20,100 nt of DNA from a virus, in IMG/VR virus record IMGVR_UViG_3300035663_000924, positions 1 to 20,100 of that record. One strand, written 5' to 3'. The notes below the pieces were generated by a model that saw nothing but the letters and a program-made list of their open reading frames with translations, ran no database searches and was not told where the DNA came from. Made by a program: the position numbers and the translations under genes. This document shows, piece after piece, positions 2,762 to 9,141 of this stretch. Within the stretch, counting starts at the first letter, position 1. Every line of letters starts with the position of its first letter.

Positions 2762-3031
2762 ATGAAATCTTATCTAATGCCTGAAAGCGTCCAATCTGAC
2801 TATGGCCAATTTCGCAGAAAAGGGAAAGTCTTTCACCGTGTCACCGGGAAACTCGTTTCGGTTCGTGCGGACATTTCAGATACTTGGTTCTCTATTCCGG
2901 CCACTACTGTGGCGGAACACGGTTTCCTTTCCATGAATGACGAAACGAAAGAACTGCAATTTACTCCGCACACTGAACAAACCGAAACACCGGCGCAATT
3001 CCGCAAATCGCTTAAAAAGGCTTACAAATAA
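2762..3031 (+). CDS. Hypothetical small protein
   Basis: An 89-residue protein, not recognised. A basic N-terminal half (RRKGKVFHRVTGKLVSVRAD, 18-37) precedes a beta-rich middle and a polar C-terminus ending in a lysine-rich helix (FRKSLKKAYK). The basic character could suit nucleic-acid binding, but no motif supports it. The ATG at 2762 is fixed by the fourth leader cassette. A hairpin with a T run follows 34 nt after the stop, suggesting that this first group of four small genes ends here or is attenuated. Confidence 0.7.
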   Translation: MKSYLMPESVQSDYGQFRRKGKVFHRVTGKLVSVRADISDTWFSIPATTVAEHGFLSMNDETKELQFTPHTEQTETPAQFRKSLKKAYK

Positions 3032-3064
3032 AACACCCCTCAAACCTTCACCCCATGCCCTGCT

Positions 3065-3090
3065 CCCGGCTTCGCCGGGGCGGGGTTTTT
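3065..3090 (+). terminator. Intrinsic terminator-like hairpin after the first small-gene group
   Basis: CCCGGC (3065-3070), loop TTC, GCCGGG (3074-3079), then GCGGGG and five T residues (3086-3090). A second smaller hairpin, CCGGC-ACTTC-GCCGG, follows at 3101-3115. The T run is 7 nt from the stem, so termination may be partial. Confidence 0.5.
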
Positions 3091-3154
3091 GGGTGCAAAC
3101 CCGGCACTTCGCCGGATCCAAAACAGAGTCAGAAAAAACAGATAAATAAAGCCT

Positions 3155-3691
3155 ATGAAACTGCCTAAAAACTGCCTTGTCGAAAAAGTTGCCAGCCAAG
3201 ATGCCACCCGTGCGGCCATAACCCTCCCGTATTTGGACATAGATGCGGAGAGGACAGCGCACATCATTTCCACCAACGGCGCGGCCATGGTAAAACTTCC
3301 CGTGTCAATTACGGCGGAGGATGTGGCCGGATATGTGCCAACGGTTGCCTTGAAAGAAGGGCGCAAGTTAGCCAAGAAATTCGATTCCGTTGAGTTGGTA
3401 TGCAATGGGAGCGCGAAACTTTTGAATGGCGCAACCTATCCACGGGAGAGCCGGGAGACGTTCCCCAATTGGCGTCAAGTTTGGCCCAAAGAAGAGGGCA
3501 AAATTACGTTGGCCCTTGATGCGGCTTTGCTTTACGAATTGGCGCAGGCAATGGGAACGGAGGGCGTTGTCCTTACTTTTGATGCAGACAAACCCATATC
3601 CGTTCGCGCAACCGCAACCAAAGCTTGCAAGCCCGCAAGTCTTGATGCCATGGGTATCATTATGCCAATTCGCACTAAGCCCGCAAGCTAA
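3155..3691 (+). CDS. Sliding-clamp-like (DnaN-related) protein
   Basis: A 178-residue protein whose order of features recalls a bacterial beta-clamp subunit, at about half the usual 360-370 residues. It has an N-terminal domain with an IISTNGAAMVKLPV strand (37-50, cf. the clamp VATDGHRLA region), a YPRESRETFPNW connector (95-106), and a second domain with LDAALLYELAQAMG (121-134) and DKPISVRA (145-152), matching the clamp pattern of helix plus Pro-Ile-x-Val strand. It ends with a GIIMPIR element, typical of clamp C-termini. In the family, clamps tether polymerases and other DNA enzymes to DNA. A shortened phage clamp would have to oligomerise differently or bind host clamp partners. It is followed by strong hairpins. 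The assignment is from motif pattern only. Confidence 0.5.
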   Translation: MKLPKNCLVEKVASQDATRAAITLPYLDIDAERTAHIISTNGAAMVKLPVSITAEDVAGYVPTVALKEGRKLAKKFDSVELVCNGSAKLLNGATYPRESRETFPNWRQVWPKEEGKITLALDAALLYELAQAMGTEGVVLTFDADKPISVRATATKACKPASLDAMGIIMPIRTKPAS

Positions 3692-3713
3692 CACCCCACA
3701 ACCCCAACCCCTT

Positions 3714-3774
3714 GCCCTGCCTTCTCTCCGGAGAGGCGGGGCTAAGGCGTTGAAAGGGGGCGCGTTTGCCCCTT
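3714..3774 (+). terminator. Two tandem hairpins after the clamp-like gene
   Basis: GCCCTGCC (3714-3721) pairs with GGCGGGGC (3735-3742), enclosing a TCT-CCGG-AGA tip. A second hairpin pairs AAGGGG (about 3754-3759) with CCCCTT (3769-3774). There is no real T run after the first, so it may be a processing or attenuation structure rather than a full terminator. Confidence 0.4.
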
Positions 3775-3798
3775 AATTGACAGGAAACACATACACAA

Positions 3799-4194
3799 AT
3801 GACAACCAAAGAGAAGATTAAGCTAGTTGAAACCGCGTTTTCCGCGCTTTACCCGTTGGAGAACATCACGTGGACAAATTACCCGCAAGAACTGCTCCGG
3901 ATGTGCTCAGACGAGGAAAAGAGTCACCGTGGAGACGATTTTAACCGCTCGCATCCGAACACTGTATCCGCTCACGTTGCGGCCAAAATGTTTGCCGTAA
4001 AACGTATAGCCGAATACCTCACCGGACAACGTATGCCTAGGGGGAAAGACTTCCTGCACACCCAACGTTCTTGTTTCTATGCGGCGGGATTGGTTGACGC
4101 TCACCGCAAGATCATCCGCAAAGCTTGGCGCAAATTGCCAATCGCGGAGTTGGCTGAATTGGATTACTGCGAATTCGTCGGCAAATCTGTTTAA
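3799..4194 (+). CDS. Hypothetical protein, mostly helical
   Basis: A 131-residue protein, not recognised. It appears almost entirely alpha-helical, with a basic C-terminal half (HRKIIRKAWRKLPIAELAEL, 102-121) and a conserved-looking HTQRSCFYAAGLVDAHRK stretch. The ATG at 3799 has GACAGGAAACAC upstream, with AGGA 12 nt before ATG. It is isolated between two hairpin regions, so it forms its own small unit. Helical basic proteins of this type in phage early regions are sometimes regulators, but no DNA-binding motif is clear. Confidence 0.7.
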   Translation: MTTKEKIKLVETAFSALYPLENITWTNYPQELLRMCSDEEKSHRGDDFNRSHPNTVSAHVAAKMFAVKRIAEYLTGQRMPRGKDFLHTQRSCFYAAGLVDAHRKIIRKAWRKLPIAELAELDYCEFVGKSV

Positions 4195-4215
4195 GACTTA
4201 AAACCCCCATTAAAA

Positions 4216-4243
4216 GCCCGCTCCCGTCAATGGGGCGGGCCTT
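4216..4243 (+). terminator. GC-rich hairpin after the helical hypothetical gene
   Basis: GCCCGCTCCC (4216-4225) pairs with GGGGCGGGC (4232-4240) across loop GTCAAT with one bulged base, followed by CTTTGC. The stem is strong but the T run is only three residues, so it is a weak terminator or 3' protecting hairpin. It lies 17 nt before the next ATG. Confidence 0.5.
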
Positions 4244-4257
4244 TGCGGTGAACACTT

Positions 4258-4557
4258 ATGAAAAAAACACAAAATACACATACACCGGGGCCTTGGAAAA
4301 CTGTTTTAAGCGCATCAACTCGCGCCGTCACAACCGCAAACGAAGCGCCGAAACAGGCAGCTATTTGCCGTTTATTCACTGAATGCGTGGCGTTTGAACC
4401 GGGAGAATTTGAAGCCAACGCCCGTTTGATCGCAGCCGCGCCGGAATTGCTTCAAGTGGCACGGGATTTCCTTTTGCTTGCGGCTTTACACGATTGGGGA
4501 GGGGCCGCAATTGACTTTGCAAAGGCTACGGTAGCCAAAGCGGAGGGCGTGAAATGA
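4258..4557 (+). CDS. Phage HTPGPW / ARLIAAAPELL family protein
   Basis: A 99-residue protein with the two signatures of a very common small phage family: HTPGPW near the N-terminus (8-13) and ANARLIAAAPELLQVARDFL (54-73) in the second half. Members occur in early or accessory regions of many tailed phages; no reaction is established to my knowledge. Ala-rich helices dominate the C-terminal half. The ATG at 4258 follows a hairpin and lacks a Shine-Dalgarno site. The stop overlaps the next start by 4 nt (ATGA), opening a chain of coupled small genes. Confidence 0.85.
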   Translation: MKKTQNTHTPGPWKTVLSASTRAVTTANEAPKQAAICRLFTECVAFEPGEFEANARLIAAAPELLQVARDFLLLAALHDWGGAAIDFAKATVAKAEGVK

Positions 4558-4811
4558 AAATTGGCATTGATTATGTTAAGTCGCTCCAAATTCAGGACGA
4601 ATATCGGGCGGCGCACTGCAACCACGGGGAAGAATTTGGCACGTTTTGGCACCCTGAGCACCCCGATTCAAGGGATTGGAGCATAACGCTCTACCGCGTA
4701 TGTGACTCTTTAGTTTTTGCGACAAATGGCGATCCCGTATGGGATCATTGCGCCGAATTTTCGGAGCTGGTAGCGGAATATGGAATAGACATTGAGGAGG
4801 CAATCGCATGA
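4554..4811 (+). CDS. Hypothetical small acidic protein
   Basis: An 85-residue acidic protein, not recognised. It has aromatic and His-rich stretches (HCNHGEEFGTFWHPEHPDSR, 21-40), a beta-like WSITLYRVCDSLVFATNG, and an acidic helical end (EYGIDIEEAIA). The His/Cys cluster could bind metal, but spacing fits no family I know. Start and end are both set by ATGA overlaps with neighbours, so it is translated with them. Confidence 0.75.
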   Translation: MKIGIDYVKSLQIQDEYRAAHCNHGEEFGTFWHPEHPDSRDWSITLYRVCDSLVFATNGDPVWDHCAEFSELVAEYGIDIEEAIA

Positions 4812-4918
4812 AATCGCTTTTCCGCTACCTCATTGAATCTCTGCTCGATTTCCTGTTTGCGTGCAATAGAACGCGAAACGACTTGAAAGAGGCGAACACT
4901 GGAACACTTAAAAAATGA
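4808..4918 (+). CDS. Very small hypothetical protein (36 aa) in coupled chain
   Basis: A 36-codon frame whose ATG (4808) overlaps the previous stop and whose TGA (4916-4918) overlaps the next ATG. The peptide starts with an amphipathic or hydrophobic stretch (LFRYLIESLLDFLFA, 4-18) and ends polar and lysine-rich. It could be a membrane-associated peptide. The double ATGA linkage is the main evidence that it is real; no homologue is recognised. Confidence 0.55.
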   Translation: MKSLFRYLIESLLDFLFACNRTRNDLKEANTGTLKK

Positions 4919-5001
4919 CACGACTTATTCTCAACGCCGCGCTTTGCCTATTAAGCATAGGCGCATTAGTCCTATGCCTCGCCGTGAGGCTCTTAAGATG
5001 A
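4915..5001 (+). CDS. 28-residue single-span membrane peptide
   Basis: The frame from ATG 4915 encodes MTRLILNAALCLLSIGALVL followed by CLAVRLLR. Residues 4-25 form one continuous hydrophobic segment flanked by Arg on both sides, a classical single transmembrane span. Both ends overlap neighbouring genes by ATGA, so position and frame are constrained. Such peptides in phages include lysis accessories, superinfection-exclusion proteins and membrane modulators; which applies here is unknown. Its early-strand location, far from tail and lysis genes, argues mildly against holin function. Confidence 0.6.
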   Translation: MTRLILNAALCLLSIGALVLCLAVRLLR

Positions 5002-5219
5002 CGCCTAGACCCTACAGACTGCCGAAAGTGAGGCTTGTCGGCCTCGTAAATCCGCGCACAAAAGCCTCTTTGGAGGCGTGGCGCACCCATTACAAAGTGC
5101 CTATAGGCGAGAGCCTTGACGCCCTCTTCGACCACGCCATGCGGGGCGAGGGGGCGTTTATTTTCCGTTTACCGGTAAATGGTAATCCTTTGCCCGATAA
5201 CTCAGATAAACCTCAATAA
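4998..5219 (+). CDS. Possible ribbon-helix-helix small protein
   Basis: A 73-residue protein starting with a basic Pro-rich arm (TPRPYRLPK), then a strand VRLVGLVN (10-17), helix RTKASLEAWRTHYKVP and helix ESLDALFDHAMRG. The strand-helix-helix order and size resemble ribbon-helix-helix regulators, which bind operators as dimers; this is pattern inference only. The C-terminus is polar and disordered. The start at 4998 is chosen over an upstream ATG (4944) because it overlaps the stop of the 28-residue gene as ATGA, like the other links in this chain. The stop TAA is directly followed by ATG 5220. Confidence 0.6.
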   Translation: MTPRPYRLPKVRLVGLVNPRTKASLEAWRTHYKVPIGESLDALFDHAMRGEGAFIFRLPVNGNPLPDNSDKPQ

Positions 5220-5234
5220 ATGACACTATTATGA
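5220..5234 (+). other. Four-codon minicistron linking two genes
   Basis: ATG ACA CTA TTA TGA begins at the base after the previous TAA and its TGA overlaps the ATG of the next gene (5231). It is also an 11-bp near-tandem duplication of the next gene's start (ATGACACTATT / ATGACACTCATT). It could let terminating ribosomes re-initiate or simply be a duplication by-product. Confidence 0.35.
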
Positions 5235-5365
5235 CACTCATTAATCTAATCAGCCTAATTTTGGGCTTCCTATTGATTGGCTTAGTCGCACTCTTCCTAT
5301 TTTGGCCAAAAATCGCACCCTTCTTTTTTTTGGGCAAGGATGATGACGACAGTTGGGACTTGTAA
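5231..5365 (+). CDS. 44-residue single-span membrane protein with acidic tail
   Basis: The frame encodes MTLINLISLILGFLLIGLVA and continues LFLFWPKIAPFFFLGKDDDD SWDL. Residues 3-34 are very hydrophobic, enough for one long span with a Pro-containing break (WPKIAP), followed by a sharply acidic C-terminus (GKDDDDSWDL). The topology is likely N-out or hairpin-like with the charged tail in the cytoplasm, but this cannot be decided. It is the second membrane peptide in the same coupled chain, suggesting a membrane-directed function for the cluster. The ATG at 5231 overlaps the minicistron stop; no Shine-Dalgarno. Confidence 0.6.
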   Translation: MTLINLISLILGFLLIGLVALFLFWPKIAPFFFLGKDDDDSWDL

Positions 5366-5387
5366 CCAAAAATTGCAGAAACTCAGT

Positions 5388-5445
5388 CAAATATAACAAA
5401 AATAGCTTAGACATAACAAATATAACAAAAATCGCTTAGAAATAA
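5388..5445. repeat. Two tandem 29-bp AT-rich repeats (iteron- or operator-like)
   Basis: CAAATATAACAAAAATAGCT plus TAGACATAA (5388-5416) is followed without gap by a second copy (5417-5445) differing at two positions (ATCGC, AGAAATAA). The flanks are also AT-rich and a degenerate partial third copy may lie at 5366-5387. It sits directly upstream of a short gene and 260 bp before a promoter-RNA region. It contains TTAGACATAA, shared with the gap before the terminase genes. Confidence 0.65.
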
Positions 5446-5456
5446 CAATAAAACGT

Positions 5457-5705
5457 ATGAAAACAGAACCAGAACACATCAGGGCATTTATCGGCACCCG
5501 CAAAATCTGCTACCCATACCACGTCGGCCAATTGCAGGCCGTGCTACGCTATTGCTTGCCCTATGGGGTGATTCCCGGCGTGACGATCACCGACAGGGCG
5601 GCATTCAATGAATGGGTGGAAACGGAATTGGAACGGCTCATTCAAGAGGCTGAAAAGTTTGAACGCGACGAAAACAAACCAATTGACAACGAACCCATGG
5701 TATAA
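5457..5705 (+). CDS. Hypothetical small acidic protein
   Basis: An 82-residue protein, not recognised. The N-terminal half (RAFIGTRKICYPYHVGQLQA, 9-28) looks globular; the C-terminal half (WVETELERLIQEAEKFERDE, 53-72) is a charged helix, possibly coiled coil, followed by a disordered DNEPMV tail. The ATG at 5457 has no Shine-Dalgarno but follows the 29-bp repeats, so it may be regulated through them. The last codons overlap an extended -10 promoter (5698-5706), which includes the TAA stop. Confidence 0.65.
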   Translation: MKTEPEHIRAFIGTRKICYPYHVGQLQAVLRYCLPYGVIPGVTITDRAAFNEWVETELERLIQEAEKFERDENKPIDNEPMV

Positions 5706-5706
5706 T
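5698..5706 (+). promoter_or_regulatory. Perfect extended -10 promoter element (TGGTATAAT)
   Basis: TG-G-TATAAT at 5698-5706 matches the extended -10 consensus exactly and contains the stop codon of the preceding gene. Transcription would start around 5712-5714. A TTGACA at 5683-5688 lies only 12 nt upstream, too close for a normal -35, but extended -10 promoters do not need one. Everything downstream to 6182 is non-coding. Confidence 0.55.
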
Positions 5707-5712
5707 CCCCTC

Positions 5713-5818
5713 GCTAGGTAGCTGTACAAGAGCCTACGGACATTTCATTTTTCCCGCCTGCCGACGGAGGGAATCTTCAGAAAAGCCCCTTGGTACTTGT
5801 ACTGCCAAGGGGTTTTTT
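5713..5818 (+). ncRNA. Candidate ~105-nt structured RNA ending at a strong terminator
   Basis: The predicted RNA begins just after the extended -10 element. It could form TAGG (5715-5718) with CCTA (5733-5736), then TTCCC-G-CC with GG-A-GGGAA (5751-5773, loop TGCCGAC), and ends in a textbook intrinsic terminator at 5786-5818. It contains no start codon with a plausible frame. It could be a trans-acting phage small RNA, or a leader/attenuator for the operon at 6183. I recognise no known RNA family. Confidence 0.5.
5786..5818 (+). terminator. Strong intrinsic terminator
   Basis: CCCCTTGG (5786-5793) pairs perfectly with CCAAGGGG (5805-5812), loop of 11 nt, followed immediately by six T residues (5813-5818). 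This is the best intrinsic terminator in the window. Confidence 0.85.
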
Positions 5819-5957
5819 ACTGCCCTGAAAGTAAGACGTACCGTTAAGGGGACGTATAAGCCATGTTGCACCTTACGCCTGAAGCGGCGACACACTCAGC
5901 TTTGCTAGGACAGCGCGAAAATCCGTTCCCCAACTTTGAAGATTCGAGGGAGGGCGG

Positions 5958-6096
5958 TATGGAACTCCCTCTGGAGGATCATTTGGCAGCTAAGCGCATA
6001 CCGAAGCCCTGATTCTTTTGGGGTAGTGCAAACGGGACTCTCAGACATTGGCCTAACGGCCTATGGAATCTTCTCTGTCGGATATTTGGCAGCTTA
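5958..6096 (+). repeat. Imperfect 35-nt direct repeat inside the non-coding RNA region
   Basis: Copy A (5958-5993) and copy B (6062-6096) share TATGGAA, CTCTG, GGAT and an exact ATTTGGCAGCT (5981-5991 and 6084-6094), at about 104 nt spacing. It suggests two repeated structural modules within one RNA. Confidence 0.6.
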
Positions 6097-6146
6097 ACTA
6101 GCCGCGAATTGCGTAGCGGCGTCAAAACAAGAAACAAAAATGCGGG

Positions 6147-6168
6147 AAACCCCTTAAAGGGGGTTTTT
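6147..6168 (+). terminator. Intrinsic terminator 14 nt before the next gene
   Basis: AAACCCC (6147-6153), loop TTAAAG, GGGGTTT (6160-6166), with the T run continuing to 6168. The following gene starts at 6183, so its mRNA must either read through this terminator or begin in the 14-nt gap. Confidence 0.8.
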
Positions 6169-6182
6169 CGCCTCATCTAAAC

Positions 6183-6413
6183 ATGAATCAAGAAATAACA
6201 CCTCAACAAACAGGCATTGATAATGCCCAAACCGTCTTAATGCCTAAAGAAACAGTCGTTAAGACCAGAATTAGATTGCCTACCAAAAGAGGCTGGGCCG
6301 CAATGAAAGTTGCGGACCTATTCAAGGCTCAAAAGACCTTACGAGAGCTTTGCAGGGACCACGGAGCACCGCTCCACCTAGCAAGACACTACCTCTACCA
6401 AACAAAGAAATGA
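6183..6413 (+). CDS. Hypothetical small basic protein, HTH-like C-terminus
   Basis: A 76-residue protein, not recognised. It has a polar N-terminus (about 25 residues, Gln/Thr-rich), then a basic segment (RIRLPTKRGWAAMKVADLF) and helices (KTLRELCRDHGAPLHLARHY, 51-70) with helix-turn-helix spacing, so DNA binding is possible. It is the first gene after the terminator-bounded RNA region and has no Shine-Dalgarno, with only 14 nt between the T run and ATG; expression is likely controlled by terminator read-through. It starts the replication gene block. Confidence 0.65.
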   Translation: MNQEITPQQTGIDNAQTVLMPKETVVKTRIRLPTKRGWAAMKVADLFKAQKTLRELCRDHGAPLHLARHYLYQTKK

Positions 6414-6420
6414 AAAATCA

Positions 6421-6645
6421 ATGAGAACCTATTATACTGAATGTGAAAACGATTGGTTGAGAGCAGTAATAAGCGGAGAAATATGTTTCAGAAAATGCCC
6501 AACCTGTGACAACGATGGTGTTGAACACCAAGCCTACGATGAAAACGGAAATCCCTGTTCAGCGGATGATGAAACCGCCGAGCGACACACTTGCGAAAAA
6601 TGCAAGGGAGTGGCCTACATCGAATTACCTAATAAAACAAAATGA
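6421..6645 (+). CDS. Small zinc-ribbon-like protein
   Basis: A 74-residue acidic protein with two CxxC knuckles: Cys26-PT-Cys29 (KCPTCDNDG) and Cys58-EK-Cys61 (HTCEKCKGVAYIE), both followed by Gly. This is the usual four-cysteine zinc-binding arrangement of small zinc ribbons, with a DnaJ-type CxxCxG flavour. The target is unknown; such phage proteins may bind nucleic acid or host enzymes. The stop overlaps the next ATG (ATGA), and the ATG at 6421 is 7 nt after the previous stop with no Shine-Dalgarno. Confidence 0.7.
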   Translation: MRTYYTECENDWLRAVISGEICFRKCPTCDNDGVEHQAYDENGNPCSADDETAERHTCEKCKGVAYIELPNKTK

Positions 6646-6878
6646 GCACAGCAAGTATCTGCCTAGACCTAATCTTCCGCCATGCGCCTAGACTTATGCG
6701 CGAGGGTGGGGGACCAATTGAAGAAGACCGGAAAACGAACAAGCTCTCAGCCAAAACGATTTTCGCTATTCTCGAACGCCGAAAAAGCGGAATGCCTATT
6801 AAGCAAATCGGGAAGGAATTGGGCGTAAGTAGGGCCGCAATTCAGGTCCATTGCAAAAGGCACAACGTAAAACCATGA
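6642..6878 (+). CDS. Helix-turn-helix protein, resolvase-type HTH
   Basis: A 78-residue protein. Residues 38-75 (KTIFAILERRKSGMPIKQIG then KELGVSRAAIQVHCKRH) are a clear HTH of the type seen at the C-terminus of resolvases and in sigma-like proteins: a helix with RRKSGMPIKQIG, turn, recognition helix SRAAIQVHCKRH. No catalytic domain is present, so a small DNA-binding regulator is the likeliest role. It is coupled to both neighbours by ATGA overlaps. Confidence 0.75.
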   Translation: MSTASICLDLIFRHAPRLMREGGGPIEEDRKTNKLSAKTIFAILERRKSGMPIKQIGKELGVSRAAIQVHCKRHNVKP

Positions 6879-7165
6879 ACATATCAGAAACGATGGCTTC
6901 CGTCAGATTTTTGATGGGAAAATACTACTTACGATTTGCTAACAACCCCATTGCACAGGGTAAGAGCAGGGAGTTTGCCTCACGGCCTAGAATTGACGCC
7001 AAGAAAGCCCTAGCCGTTGTGCTTGACTGGCGAGGGGGTTTAAGCCGCAAGGATTTATGTAAGATACACAGCCTTTCATTGCCCTCGGTTGATCGGCTGG
7101 TTAAAGCAAACAAGGACAACCACTCACCCACGTTAGATAACATAAGCTACAAAATAAAAAAATGA
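6875..7165 (+). CDS. Small basic HTH-like protein
   Basis: A 96-residue basic protein. The central part (DAKKALAVVLDWRGGLSRKD then LCKIHSLSLPSVDRLVKAN, about 43-81) fits an HTH with Gly-Gly before helix 2. The N-terminal 40 residues are basic and aromatic (FLMGKYYLRFANN). It is probably another DNA-binding protein paired with the upstream HTH gene. The start at 6875 is set by the ATGA overlap with the previous stop, although the frame is open a little further upstream. Confidence 0.65.
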   Translation: MNISETMASVRFLMGKYYLRFANNPIAQGKSREFASRPRIDAKKALAVVLDWRGGLSRKDLCKIHSLSLPSVDRLVKANKDNHSPTLDNISYKIKK

Positions 7166-7449
7166 ACAAAGAAAAACAACGTATCGCCATCGCGGAAGCG
7201 TGTGGAAAATGGCCTGATGGATGGCCTCACTCTTTTATGAATCAGTCCGATAGGCTGCGCCATGTTCCCGACTACCTCAACGACTTGAACGCCATGCACG
7301 AAGCGGAGAATTTAGGTTTTAGAAGCGCGCAACAATGCAGGGATTACGCTGAATACCTAGACGATGGGAATGGCGGTCATTTCGCAACTGCCACCGAACG
7401 TGCCGAGGCTTTCTTGAAAACGATTGGCAAATGGGAGGATGACGAATGA
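7162..7449 (+). CDS. Small phage protein of the RIAIAEACG...PDYLNDLNAMHEAE type
   Basis: A 95-residue protein with two signatures common in tailed-phage accessory proteins: RIAIAEACGKW (7-17) and VPDYLNDLNAMHEAENL (35-51). I believe related domains are described as the phage ABA sandwich domain, but I cannot verify that here. Function is unknown. The C-terminal part (AFLKTIGKWEDDE) is also typical. ATGA overlaps join it to the HTH gene before and the helicase gene after. Confidence 0.8.
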   Translation: MNKEKQRIAIAEACGKWPDGWPHSFMNQSDRLRHVPDYLNDLNAMHEAENLGFRSAQQCRDYAEYLDDGNGGHFATATERAEAFLKTIGKWEDDE

Positions 7450-8705
7450 ACAAAGAAAGCATATTCATAGGGGCTTGCCTAGCCTGCCCTGAACTCATAG
7501 ACGACGGCATAGCACAGGGATTGAACAACGCGGCGTTCGGCCAAGCCCACCGCACCCTCTGGCAGACCCTTGTGGGGCTGCGCTCTAAGGCCCAACTCAC
7601 CGACTGTAACAGTGTTTACCTAGCTTTGGGCGATAAGTGCCCGGCGGATGAGCTATTTGCGGCTGAGAAAGCCTGCCAAAGCTCAGTGACGGGACGTAAG
7701 GCTCTTAAAAGCCTGATATGGGAGGGACAGTTGGCTACGCTCAAGCCTGCCCTTCAGGACACGATTGCTTGCGTTTTACGGGGCGGGAAGGCTGAGGAGG
7801 TGTCAACACTCGTGGAAGGGCTGCAAACCCACTTAAAACCCACAGAATCGGAGGCTCCAAGCCTCACCCAACTCATTACGGAGGTGAAGCTATGGGCCGA
7901 GCAGGAAATTGCGGGCACTAGAGACAACCGCGACCTAGTAACTACCGGCCTGCCTAGCTTCGACAAGCTCTCTAGCCCGATGGAAGCACATGAGTATGTG
8001 GTTGTCGGCGCGAGAACGTCCATTGGCAAGTCCTCGTTTATGAGCCAAATTGCCAGCCACAACCTCAACCGGGGCTTACGGGTGGCCTACTTCACCCTTG
8101 AAACCTCAGCCGGGGCTGTCGTTAAGCAAATCGCGGGACAACGGGCGAAGATAAACCTGCGCCAAATCAACCAAGAGATGAGCGACCGGCAACAGGAGTA
8201 TTTCAAAGCTCTGAAGCGACTAGGCGAGCAACACCTCCGAGTTTTCGACAAGGATATGACTGTTGGCCAAATTGAGAGCCGTTGCCGACTTTTGGCCGCA
8301 AGCTGGAAGCCACAGCTTGTAATCATTGACTACCTCGGTCTAATCAGGGGCACCGATGGGTCTGCTTACGAACGCATGGGGCAACTCTCTAAAGCCATGA
8401 TACCGCTGAGGAAAACTTTGGGCTGCGTGCTAATGGTGGCGGCACAGTTGAACCGCTCCAACGAACGGGAAGATCGTGCGCCAACCCGCTCCGACTTTCG
8501 GGACGCTGGCTCCATTGAGGAAGACGCGCACAGAGTCATTGCCCTTCACCGGCCCAGCAAGAGCCACAGCGGAAACGTCCAAGAACTAGGGCAATCTACC
8601 TATGACTATGAGCTGCTGCAATTGAAGCTCAGGGATGGACCGCTGGCCTATTCTCGCATCAAATACTTCGCTCCCCACACTTGGTTTTATGAAGAAACAA
8701 ATTGA
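7446..8705 (+). CDS. DnaB-type replicative DNA helicase
   Basis: A 419-residue protein, slightly shorter than bacterial DnaB (about 450-470). The N-terminal domain (1-125) is helical, as in DnaB. The RecA-like core has TTGLPSFDKL (166-175), Walker A VVGARTSIGKSS (186-197; canonical DnaB GARPSMGKTA), AYFTLET (214-220), Walker B LVIIDYLGLI (291-300), AAQLNRSNE (332-340, sensor) and DFRDAGSIEEDAHRVIALHR (350-369), the DnaB-family motif leading to the arginine finger. It should form a hexamer that unwinds DNA 5'-3' at the fork using ATP. No separate loader, primase or polymerase is seen in the window. Start and ATGA overlap agree. Confidence 0.95.
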   Translation: MNKESIFIGACLACPELIDDGIAQGLNNAAFGQAHRTLWQTLVGLRSKAQLTDCNSVYLALGDKCPADELFAAEKACQSSVTGRKALKSLIWEGQLATLKPALQDTIACVLRGGKAEEVSTLVEGLQTHLKPTESEAPSLTQLITEVKLWAEQEIAGTRDNRDLVTTGLPSFDKLSSPMEAHEYVVVGARTSIGKSSFMSQIASHNLNRGLRVAYFTLETSAGAVVKQIAGQRAKINLRQINQEMSDRQQEYFKALKRLGEQHLRVFDKDMTVGQIESRCRLLAASWKPQLVIIDYLGLIRGTDGSAYERMGQLSKAMIPLRKTLGCVLMVAAQLNRSNEREDRAPTRSDFRDAGSIEEDAHRVIALHRPSKSHSGNVQELGQSTYDYELLQLKLRDGPLAYSRIKYFAPHTWFYEETN

Positions 8706-8865
8706 TCTTTTCGGCAACGAAATTAGCATAGAAAAGGCTACCGAGAAGCCAGTTGCGAAAGTTGAAGAAAAAAAAGAAGAAATAGCTCGACAGGAGTTAA
8801 TCAATCGTCCCTTCTCGGTGCTCAGGGTAGATAAAAACACAACGTGGATATTCCACGAAACCTAA
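8689..8865 (+). CDS. Small hypothetical protein (MKKQIDLFGNE type)
   Basis: A 58-residue highly charged protein starting at 8689, 17 nt inside the helicase gene in another frame. The N-terminal KKQIDLFGNE is a motif I have seen at the start of short phage proteins; a Lys/Glu-rich linker (EKPVAKVEEKKEEIARQE) and a C-terminal strand (FSVLRVDKNTTWIF) follow. QIDLF also loosely resembles a clamp-binding QxxLF peptide, worth noting because a clamp-like gene is present, but this is inference. No Shine-Dalgarno is visible. Confidence 0.6.
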   Translation: MKKQIDLFGNEISIEKATEKPVAKVEEKKEEIARQELINRPFSVLRVDKNTTWIFHET

Positions 8866-8871
8866 AAACAG

Positions 8872-9141
8872 ATGCATATAAATATAGAAAACACACGCTT
8901 GCTAGGAATCGGGGAGACTGTTCTCCCCACCGACTACTGCCATATCGACGGCGACTTCATGCTCGTTGACCACCCAGAGGTGGGACACATAGTGGATGGC
9001 GACGAGTTCTACGAATATCGTCGCAGCCTTCAGGGTTGCCCTTGGGAAGCCATTTATGCTGAGCTGGGTATCACCAGCCAACAAGCCAAAAATTCCTTTC
9101 GCAGGATTTGCGAAGAGCTCAAGAACCTCAAACATGAATAA
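8872..9141 (+). CDS. Hypothetical small acidic protein with HTH-like C-terminus
   Basis: An 89-residue protein, not recognised. It has an acidic, beta-rich N-terminal half (GETVLPTDYCHIDGDFMLVD) and a C-terminal helical part (PWEAIYAELGITSQQAKNSF, 57-76, then RRICEELKNL) with the spacing of a sigma-like or HTH segment. The ATG at 8872 lies 7 nt after the previous stop without a Shine-Dalgarno. It overlaps the SSB-like gene by 8 nt, so it is probably co-translated with it. Confidence 0.65.
   Translation: MHINIENTRLLGIGETVLPTDYCHIDGDFMLVDHPEVGHIVDGDEFYEYRRSLQGCPWEAIYAELGITSQQAKNSFRRICEELKNLKHE

Follow-up and report, generated by a model that had tools for sequence, protein, structure and literature searches.

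Do the very small overlapping frames found in a 20.1-kb virus record, the whole of which is referred to here as the window, encode proteins, and if so, what might a set that includes two membrane peptides do for the phage?

Layout of the chain and evidence for coding

Inspection of the window located all five frames of 85, 36, 28, 73 and 44 aa at 4554-5365 on the plus strand, where the sequence-only reading had placed them, together with the three ATGA joints (at 4808, 4915 and 4998) and the TAA-ATG minicistron joint that it had described (Table 1). A fourth ATGA, at 4554, links the end of a 99-aa gene to the start of p85, showing that the chain begins one gene earlier; the GGAGG of p85 sits inside the final codons of this 99-aa gene. 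At the other end, the TAA of the 73-aa gene (5217-5219) is followed directly by ATG-ACA-CTA-TTA-TGA, the TGA of which overlaps the ATG of TM44. The longest ATGA chain in the window comprised five frames (counting frames of at least 25 aa), compared with a maximum of three, reached in 20 of 200 first-order Markov sequences; the five-frame chain is outside chance. A second five-frame ATGA-joined chain begins at 6421, and tight gene joining is therefore a style of the whole arm.

Table 1. Coordinates of the chained genes and associated features in the window.
Feature	Position	Strand	Description
99-aa gene	4258..4557	+	First gene of the chain; matches phrog_1273, a family without assigned function
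p85 (85 aa)	4554..4811	+	No family match
p36 (36 aa)	4808..4918	+	Amphipathic N-terminal helix; slot occupied by a Sec-exported lysin in relatives
Segment in place of the 377-nt lysin segment of L003 (5261-5637)	4814..4914	+	Flanks alignable
TM28 (28 aa)	4915..5001	+	Single-span membrane peptide
73-aa basic protein	4998..5219	+	Ribbon-helix-helix-like by pattern only; most constant gene of the region (30/30)
Minicistron ATGACACTATTATGA (MTLL)	5220..5234	+	Overlaps the TM44 start; varies among relatives
TM44 (44 aa)	5231..5365	+	Single span; acidic tail GKDDDDSWDL

Relatives in the viral collection comprised 33 loci for the 73-aa gene, 25 for TM44, 24 for TM28 and 8 for p36, and p85 was present in 6 other contigs at 81-100% identity. 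The TM44 loci were obtained with a clade-A alignment and added no new contigs to those in which the 73-aa gene had been found; a first scan had been empty, probably because a short divergent first sequence served for confirmation. TM28 occurred in 31 loci besides the window, and all 32 sources (the window, L008-L037 and L063) had an intact TM28 frame, the ATGA overlap into the 73-aa gene and TM44 downstream, counts that are not independent because many contigs are near-duplicates (26 sources are distinct at the DNA level, and L025, L033, L036 and L037 come from the same contigs as L003, L004, L006 and L007). Frame-disrupting indels in relatives, which had been named beforehand as a sign that would speak against these genes, broke none of the 32 TM28 frames. 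TM28, the 73-aa gene and TM44 thus make up a cassette, conserved and coupled in translation, within the early arm, the one that encodes DnaB, in an uncultured phage group.

Substitution patterns pointed in the same direction. The pN/pS ratio of TM28 was 0.15 in clade A (21 sequences) and 0.14 in clade B (5 sequences), lower in both clades than that of the 73-aa gene (0.23 and 0.38) or TM44 (0.33 and 0.21). Its variable sites at codon positions 1/2/3 numbered 13/2/22 (p=0.001) and 10/2/20 (p=0.0007) in the respective clades, and pooling the clades gave a saturated 22/10/26 (p=0.045). The gene for p85 is strongly coding, with 20/10/60 variable sites. For p36, represented by only 5 distinct DNA sequences, the distribution of 10/4/13 was not significant (p=0.08), and 28 of its 36 residues were invariant among five aligned contigs. 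We conclude that the small genes are almost certainly real, and that p36, TM28 and TM44 are, surely or with high probability, genuine genes of this uncultured group. A scarcely credible alternative is that the small frames are by-products and TM28 merely a translated leader feeding ribosomes to the 73-aa gene, for which the AGG in the R25 codon of TM28 doubles as a weak Shine-Dalgarno sequence; against this alternative stand the conservation of amino acids along the whole of TM28 with third positions free in both clades, and the position-specific polar face described below.

The homology search proposed for the two membrane peptides yielded relatives of both in the viral collection, as given above, and no significant match in Pfam, PHROGs, NCBIfam or PADLOC; the p36 family was likewise without significant match in these four. 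A blastn search of window 3000-9000 against the phage collection returned no named-phage relatives. TerL and portal had only distant relatives, the best being in Phage C75C1 (44% and 56%), and tblastn of the cassette proteins against C75C1 (E<=1) gave only short insignificant matches, the best with an E of 0.18. Neither the 73-aa gene nor TerL pointed to a host when used to scan bacterial and archaeal genomes, and titles and abstract openings in the published literature held no account of the cassette.

The exchanged slot upstream of TM28

Comparison of 43 distinct cassettes revealed that the gene upstream of TM28 is exchangeable, with a Sec-exported murein lysin and no p36 in 33, p36 and no lysin in nine, and neither in one (L104, which is incomplete, with only 1,190 nt upstream). 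For this count, L025, L033, L036, L037 and similar duplicate entries were removed, and L020 and L088, which are one contig, were counted once. The cassettes of the L017/L063 contig were counted separately; this 14.8-kb contig, a likely chimeric assembly, carries two cassettes in opposite orientation, one with the lysin and one with p36. In all 33 lysin-bearing cassettes the lysin lay on the same strand as the cassette, and in nine contigs its stop overlapped the TM28 start directly. Occupation of a common slot accounts in part for the mutual exclusion of p36 and lysin; nevertheless, the distance of the lysin from the 73-aa gene varied (about 450 to 3,700 nt upstream), and in no case was p36 found alongside it.

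The exchange is seen most clearly in a natural pair formed by the window and L003, the DNA of which aligns at window 4534-4813 (89%) and 4915-5189 (77%), leaving between these flanks 101 nt in the window and 377 nt in L003, the site of the lysin. Beyond p36 and two types of lysin, unrelated proteins of 53, 62, 64, 65-67, 73 and 216 aa also precede TM28. Whatever the gene, a frame of at least 36 codons ended in the ATGA of the TM28 start in 30 of the 32 sources (the exceptions being L012 and L063). The ATGA junctions act as borders of gene exchange.

Several features identify the usual occupant as an exported lysin. The L007 lysin exceeded the cut-off for SLT transglycosylases (PF01464; 27.4 bits versus 21.3), four of 11 records lay above that cut-off, and relatives of the L007 lysin were found in five of six full-length genomes, in one place each. 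The N-termini are signal-peptide-like (MKRT..ALPxRA-G, with the cleavage site judged by eye). The two lysin models cross-match because a 22-residue fragment was among their sequences, and they were scored only as lysin present or absent. The peptide p36 contains an amphipathic stretch with a moment of 0.52 over 18 residues.

In the p36 lineage, a near-complete record (G004) showed no lysin by tblastn or in a Pfam scan of its main frames, and none was recognised among the matches listed in a PHROG scan of those frames (25 of 36 families); the gene content of G004 is otherwise mostly common to lysin-bearing records. G004 may still encode a hydrolase from a family not yet described. One could imagine that in this lineage, comprising the window and G004, p36 together with TM28 and TM44 would replace the exported lysin, giving a tailed phage a peptide-only means of lysis or envelope disruption, a lysis set without a murein hydrolase; we regard this as very improbable. 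At this coupled slot a lysin and a 36-residue peptide are cleanly exchanged, which makes it possible to test whether an enzyme can be replaced by very small peptides.

To view the region independently of the cassette, we used a sample anchored on the DnaB helicase, consisting of 32 loci, 29 of them with usable upstream sequence (L089, L094 and L107 lacked it and were left out), plus the window. Among these 30 sources, the 73-aa family was present in 30, TM44 in 27, a lysin upstream in 25 and TM28 in 21; the records lacking TM28 have a diverged type of the 73-aa gene.

Build of the membrane peptides and the basic protein

The sequence-only reading had described the 28- and 44-aa products as single-span membrane peptides, and each indeed contains one hydrophobic span. 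Among 12 distinct versions of TM28, ten positions were invariant (M1, R3, L4, N7, A8, L12, S14, C21, L22 and R25). On a helical wheel, R3, N7, S14, C21 and R25 share one helix face, within 40 degrees, with a clustering of R=0.95 that random placement rarely equals (p=0.00013 for the five chosen positions and 0.0014 for the four strictly polar ones), although the test was devised after inspecting the sequence, and C21, a cysteine, is not strongly polar. Changing the assumed helix pitch lowered the clustering, to 0.76 at 95 degrees and 0.69 at 105. The conserved C21 also led us to consider a lipoprotein, a reading that was dropped because the residues preceding C21, judged by eye, do not fit in clade A.

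TM28 shares the build of TisB, the 29-aa type I membrane toxin of E. coli, in being one amphipathic helix, the polar face of which is conserved. In TisB, one hydrophilic side of the helix bears the charged residues and Q19, and the effect of the peptide depends on K12 and Q19 (PMC11449926). The two peptides are alike in size, in forming a single helix with one polar face, and in heptad-like spacing (D5, K12, Q19, D22 and K26 in TisB; R3, N7, S14, C21 and R25 in TM28). In contrast to TisB, TM28 is a phage gene in an operon, and no charge zipper can form in TM28 because it has no acidic residue. E. coli YohP, a 27-aa single-span protein, dimerises and lowers the membrane potential without killing (PMC12719787); it resembles TM28 in having 27-28 residues and one span, and is likened to it by build, not by sequence, YohP being a host stress protein. 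The resemblance of TM28 to TisB and YohP is a likeness of build, not of descent. TM28 is a naturally occurring peptide of TisB-like build, encoded by a phage in a cassette that also features an exported lysin.

The TM44 peptides of relatives are 34-45 aa long; their C-termini are acidic tails, almost all of which include a tryptophan. Those of L006 and L007 showed weak, sub-threshold similarity to cytochrome b6-f subunit V (PetG PF02529, E 0.0022; NF001907, E 0.00094). This similarity and the size and dissipating effect of YohP would be in keeping with a role in which TM28 and TM44 mildly lower the membrane potential or tune a respiratory complex, keeping the host quiet and causing neither lysis nor exclusion. 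We consider such modulation unlikely, as the PetG-type matches were far below the curated cut-offs, covered the hydrophobic span only and were absent for the TM44 of the window.

The start of TM44 is variable. Only 11 of the 32 sources combined a nearby TM44 start with a minicistron, which was therefore rejected as a conserved element; the other starts overlapped directly (seven of 32), were close without a minicistron (three) or lay 72-417 nt away (11, two of them with a longer small frame). In L077 and L079, recombination has left a visible scar about 200-530 nt past the core of the 73-aa gene: two distinct membrane peptides with acidic tails follow one another, and part of the C-terminus of the other 73-aa type persists. 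Directly past TM44 in the window are two tandem 29-nt AT-rich repeats (5388-5445, 93% alike), the core of which recurs after TM44 in several relatives and which may represent a promoter or binding site.

The 73-aa protein had been suggested to be a ribbon-helix-helix protein, and by eye it does resemble such regulators (Pfam RHH_1 and RHH_3), with a short strand, two helices and a G-x-P turn. This assignment found no support in profile, fold or homology tests and is pattern-based only: PF01402 matched 0 of 10 records at E<=10, PF12651 matched one of 10, elsewhere in the record, and Pfam, NCBIfam and PHROG gave no match. The AlphaFold model (pLDDT 52) has helices at 19-32 and 38-48 and no strand in the monomer, and a Foldseek search with it returned 0 matches. 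The p85 model had a pLDDT of 62.8. Weak PDB matches (capsid VP3, and Muscleblind for p85) were dismissed as chance.

These properties also bear on the idea of a toxin-antitoxin-like pair, in which TM28 would be the toxin and the basic 73-aa protein its coupled antitoxin or autoregulator. The constant ATGA coupling (32/32) and the TisB-like face of TM28 are what such a pair might show, but known ribbon-helix-helix profiles do not match the 73-aa protein, and the 73-aa gene stays without TM28 in nine of the 30 DnaB-anchored sources, which departs from the obligate pairing of type II systems and is unusual for an antitoxin. We therefore view this pairing as quite improbable.

Genomic setting and proposed role

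Genomes of this uncultured group (G001-G006) are 38-39.5 kb and carry terminase, portal and other structural genes on one strand and DnaB, exonuclease, HNH and small accessory genes on the opposite strand. We tentatively propose that the cassette is an envelope-attack or lysis-associated module in which TM28 would perturb the inner membrane. A part in attacking the host envelope is the most likely role, if a tentative one, because the slot beside the membrane peptides holds a lysin or p36, and a lysis-associated membrane peptide is favoured because an exported lysin is the usual, often directly coupled, neighbour. In this proposal, TM28 would insert in the inner membrane and self-associate via the conserved R3-N7-S14-C21-R25 face, with a fall in membrane potential like that caused by TisB and YohP; as with a pinholin, this depolarisation would promote the action of a lysin that Sec had exported beforehand. 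TM44 could be a second membrane partner or modulator, the coupled basic 73-aa protein might be a DNA-binding regulator limiting expression, and the amphipathic p36 would take the place of the lysin in one lineage.

The proposed arrangement can be compared with lysis systems of an exported (SAR or signal-peptide) endolysin and a pinholin, such as gp61-gp63 of phage N4 (PMC12642591). Both have an exported lysin gene adjoining small membrane-protein genes, and TM28 and TM44, with one span each, are like holins and pinholins in being small membrane proteins beside a phage lysin. The cassette differs in that its lysin has a cleavable-looking signal peptide, its membrane partners are 28 and 34-45 aa, its place is among the replication genes, and the lysin gives way to p36 in one lineage. 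Neither TM28 nor TM44 showed holin-family similarity in PHROGs, Pfam or NCBIfam.

The lysis-associated reading stays tentative for three reasons: the strand on which the cassette lies, its loose association with the lysin, and the other small membrane proteins that the structural arm encodes. The cassette is located in the replication and antirestriction arm rather than with the structural genes. TM28 and the lysin are not strict partners, as nine of the 43 cassettes have TM28 and p36 without a lysin, nine lysin-bearing ones lack TM28, and other genes often intervene between the two. The structural arm of G004 encodes 132-aa (phrog_6637) and 54-aa membrane proteins (L064:3795-4351, minus strand), possible holin or spanin candidates, one of which could be the holin; the PF11351 holin profile, looked for in the structural arm, gave 0 of 8.

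The setting would also fit an early host-takeover or superinfection-exclusion module, in which the peptides would bind or block a membrane component of the host or of an incoming phage and the lysin would be a mere neighbour in a swappable accessory region. The cassette shares its arm with the DnaB helicase and, in a relative, with ArdA; at least eight unrelated genes interchange freely in the position upstream of it; and TM28 persists without the lysin. An ArdA antirestriction gene (PF07275) lies in the same region as the cassette in G004 (L064:18126-18641), and an early accessory role is therefore conceivable. A frame of about 290 aa upstream of the cassette in L018, L019 and L095 looks ArdC-like, and the locus seems to collect counter-defence genes. 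Against takeover or exclusion, there is no PADLOC match, no relative with an assigned function and no identified target, leaving it a somewhat doubtful candidate. The anti-defence role that the sequence-only reading had entertained found no backing in PADLOC models, which gave 0 matches at E<=1 to 10 proteins.

Other elements of the arm were observed around the chain. Downstream, window 5698-6150 comprises about 450 nt without a clear gene, begins with TATAAT and is conserved in DNA across relatives that otherwise share little. Its predicted fold shows covariation, in that for 19 of 60 pairs one or more of the 15 sequences differed at both bases and still paired, and Rfam gave no match, making it a candidate for an unrecognised structured phage RNA. 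Upstream, an intergenic GC-rich hairpin-like stretch precedes the 99-aa gene (window 4195-4257) and was matched in 22 of 39 loci, a count that was not deduplicated; the swapped genes behind it often end in AKAEG, the codons of which supply the GGAGG of the next gene. Farther upstream, window 3155-3691 matches phrog_3007, 'RusA-like resolvase', but to the eye the C-terminus of its product looks like a sliding clamp.
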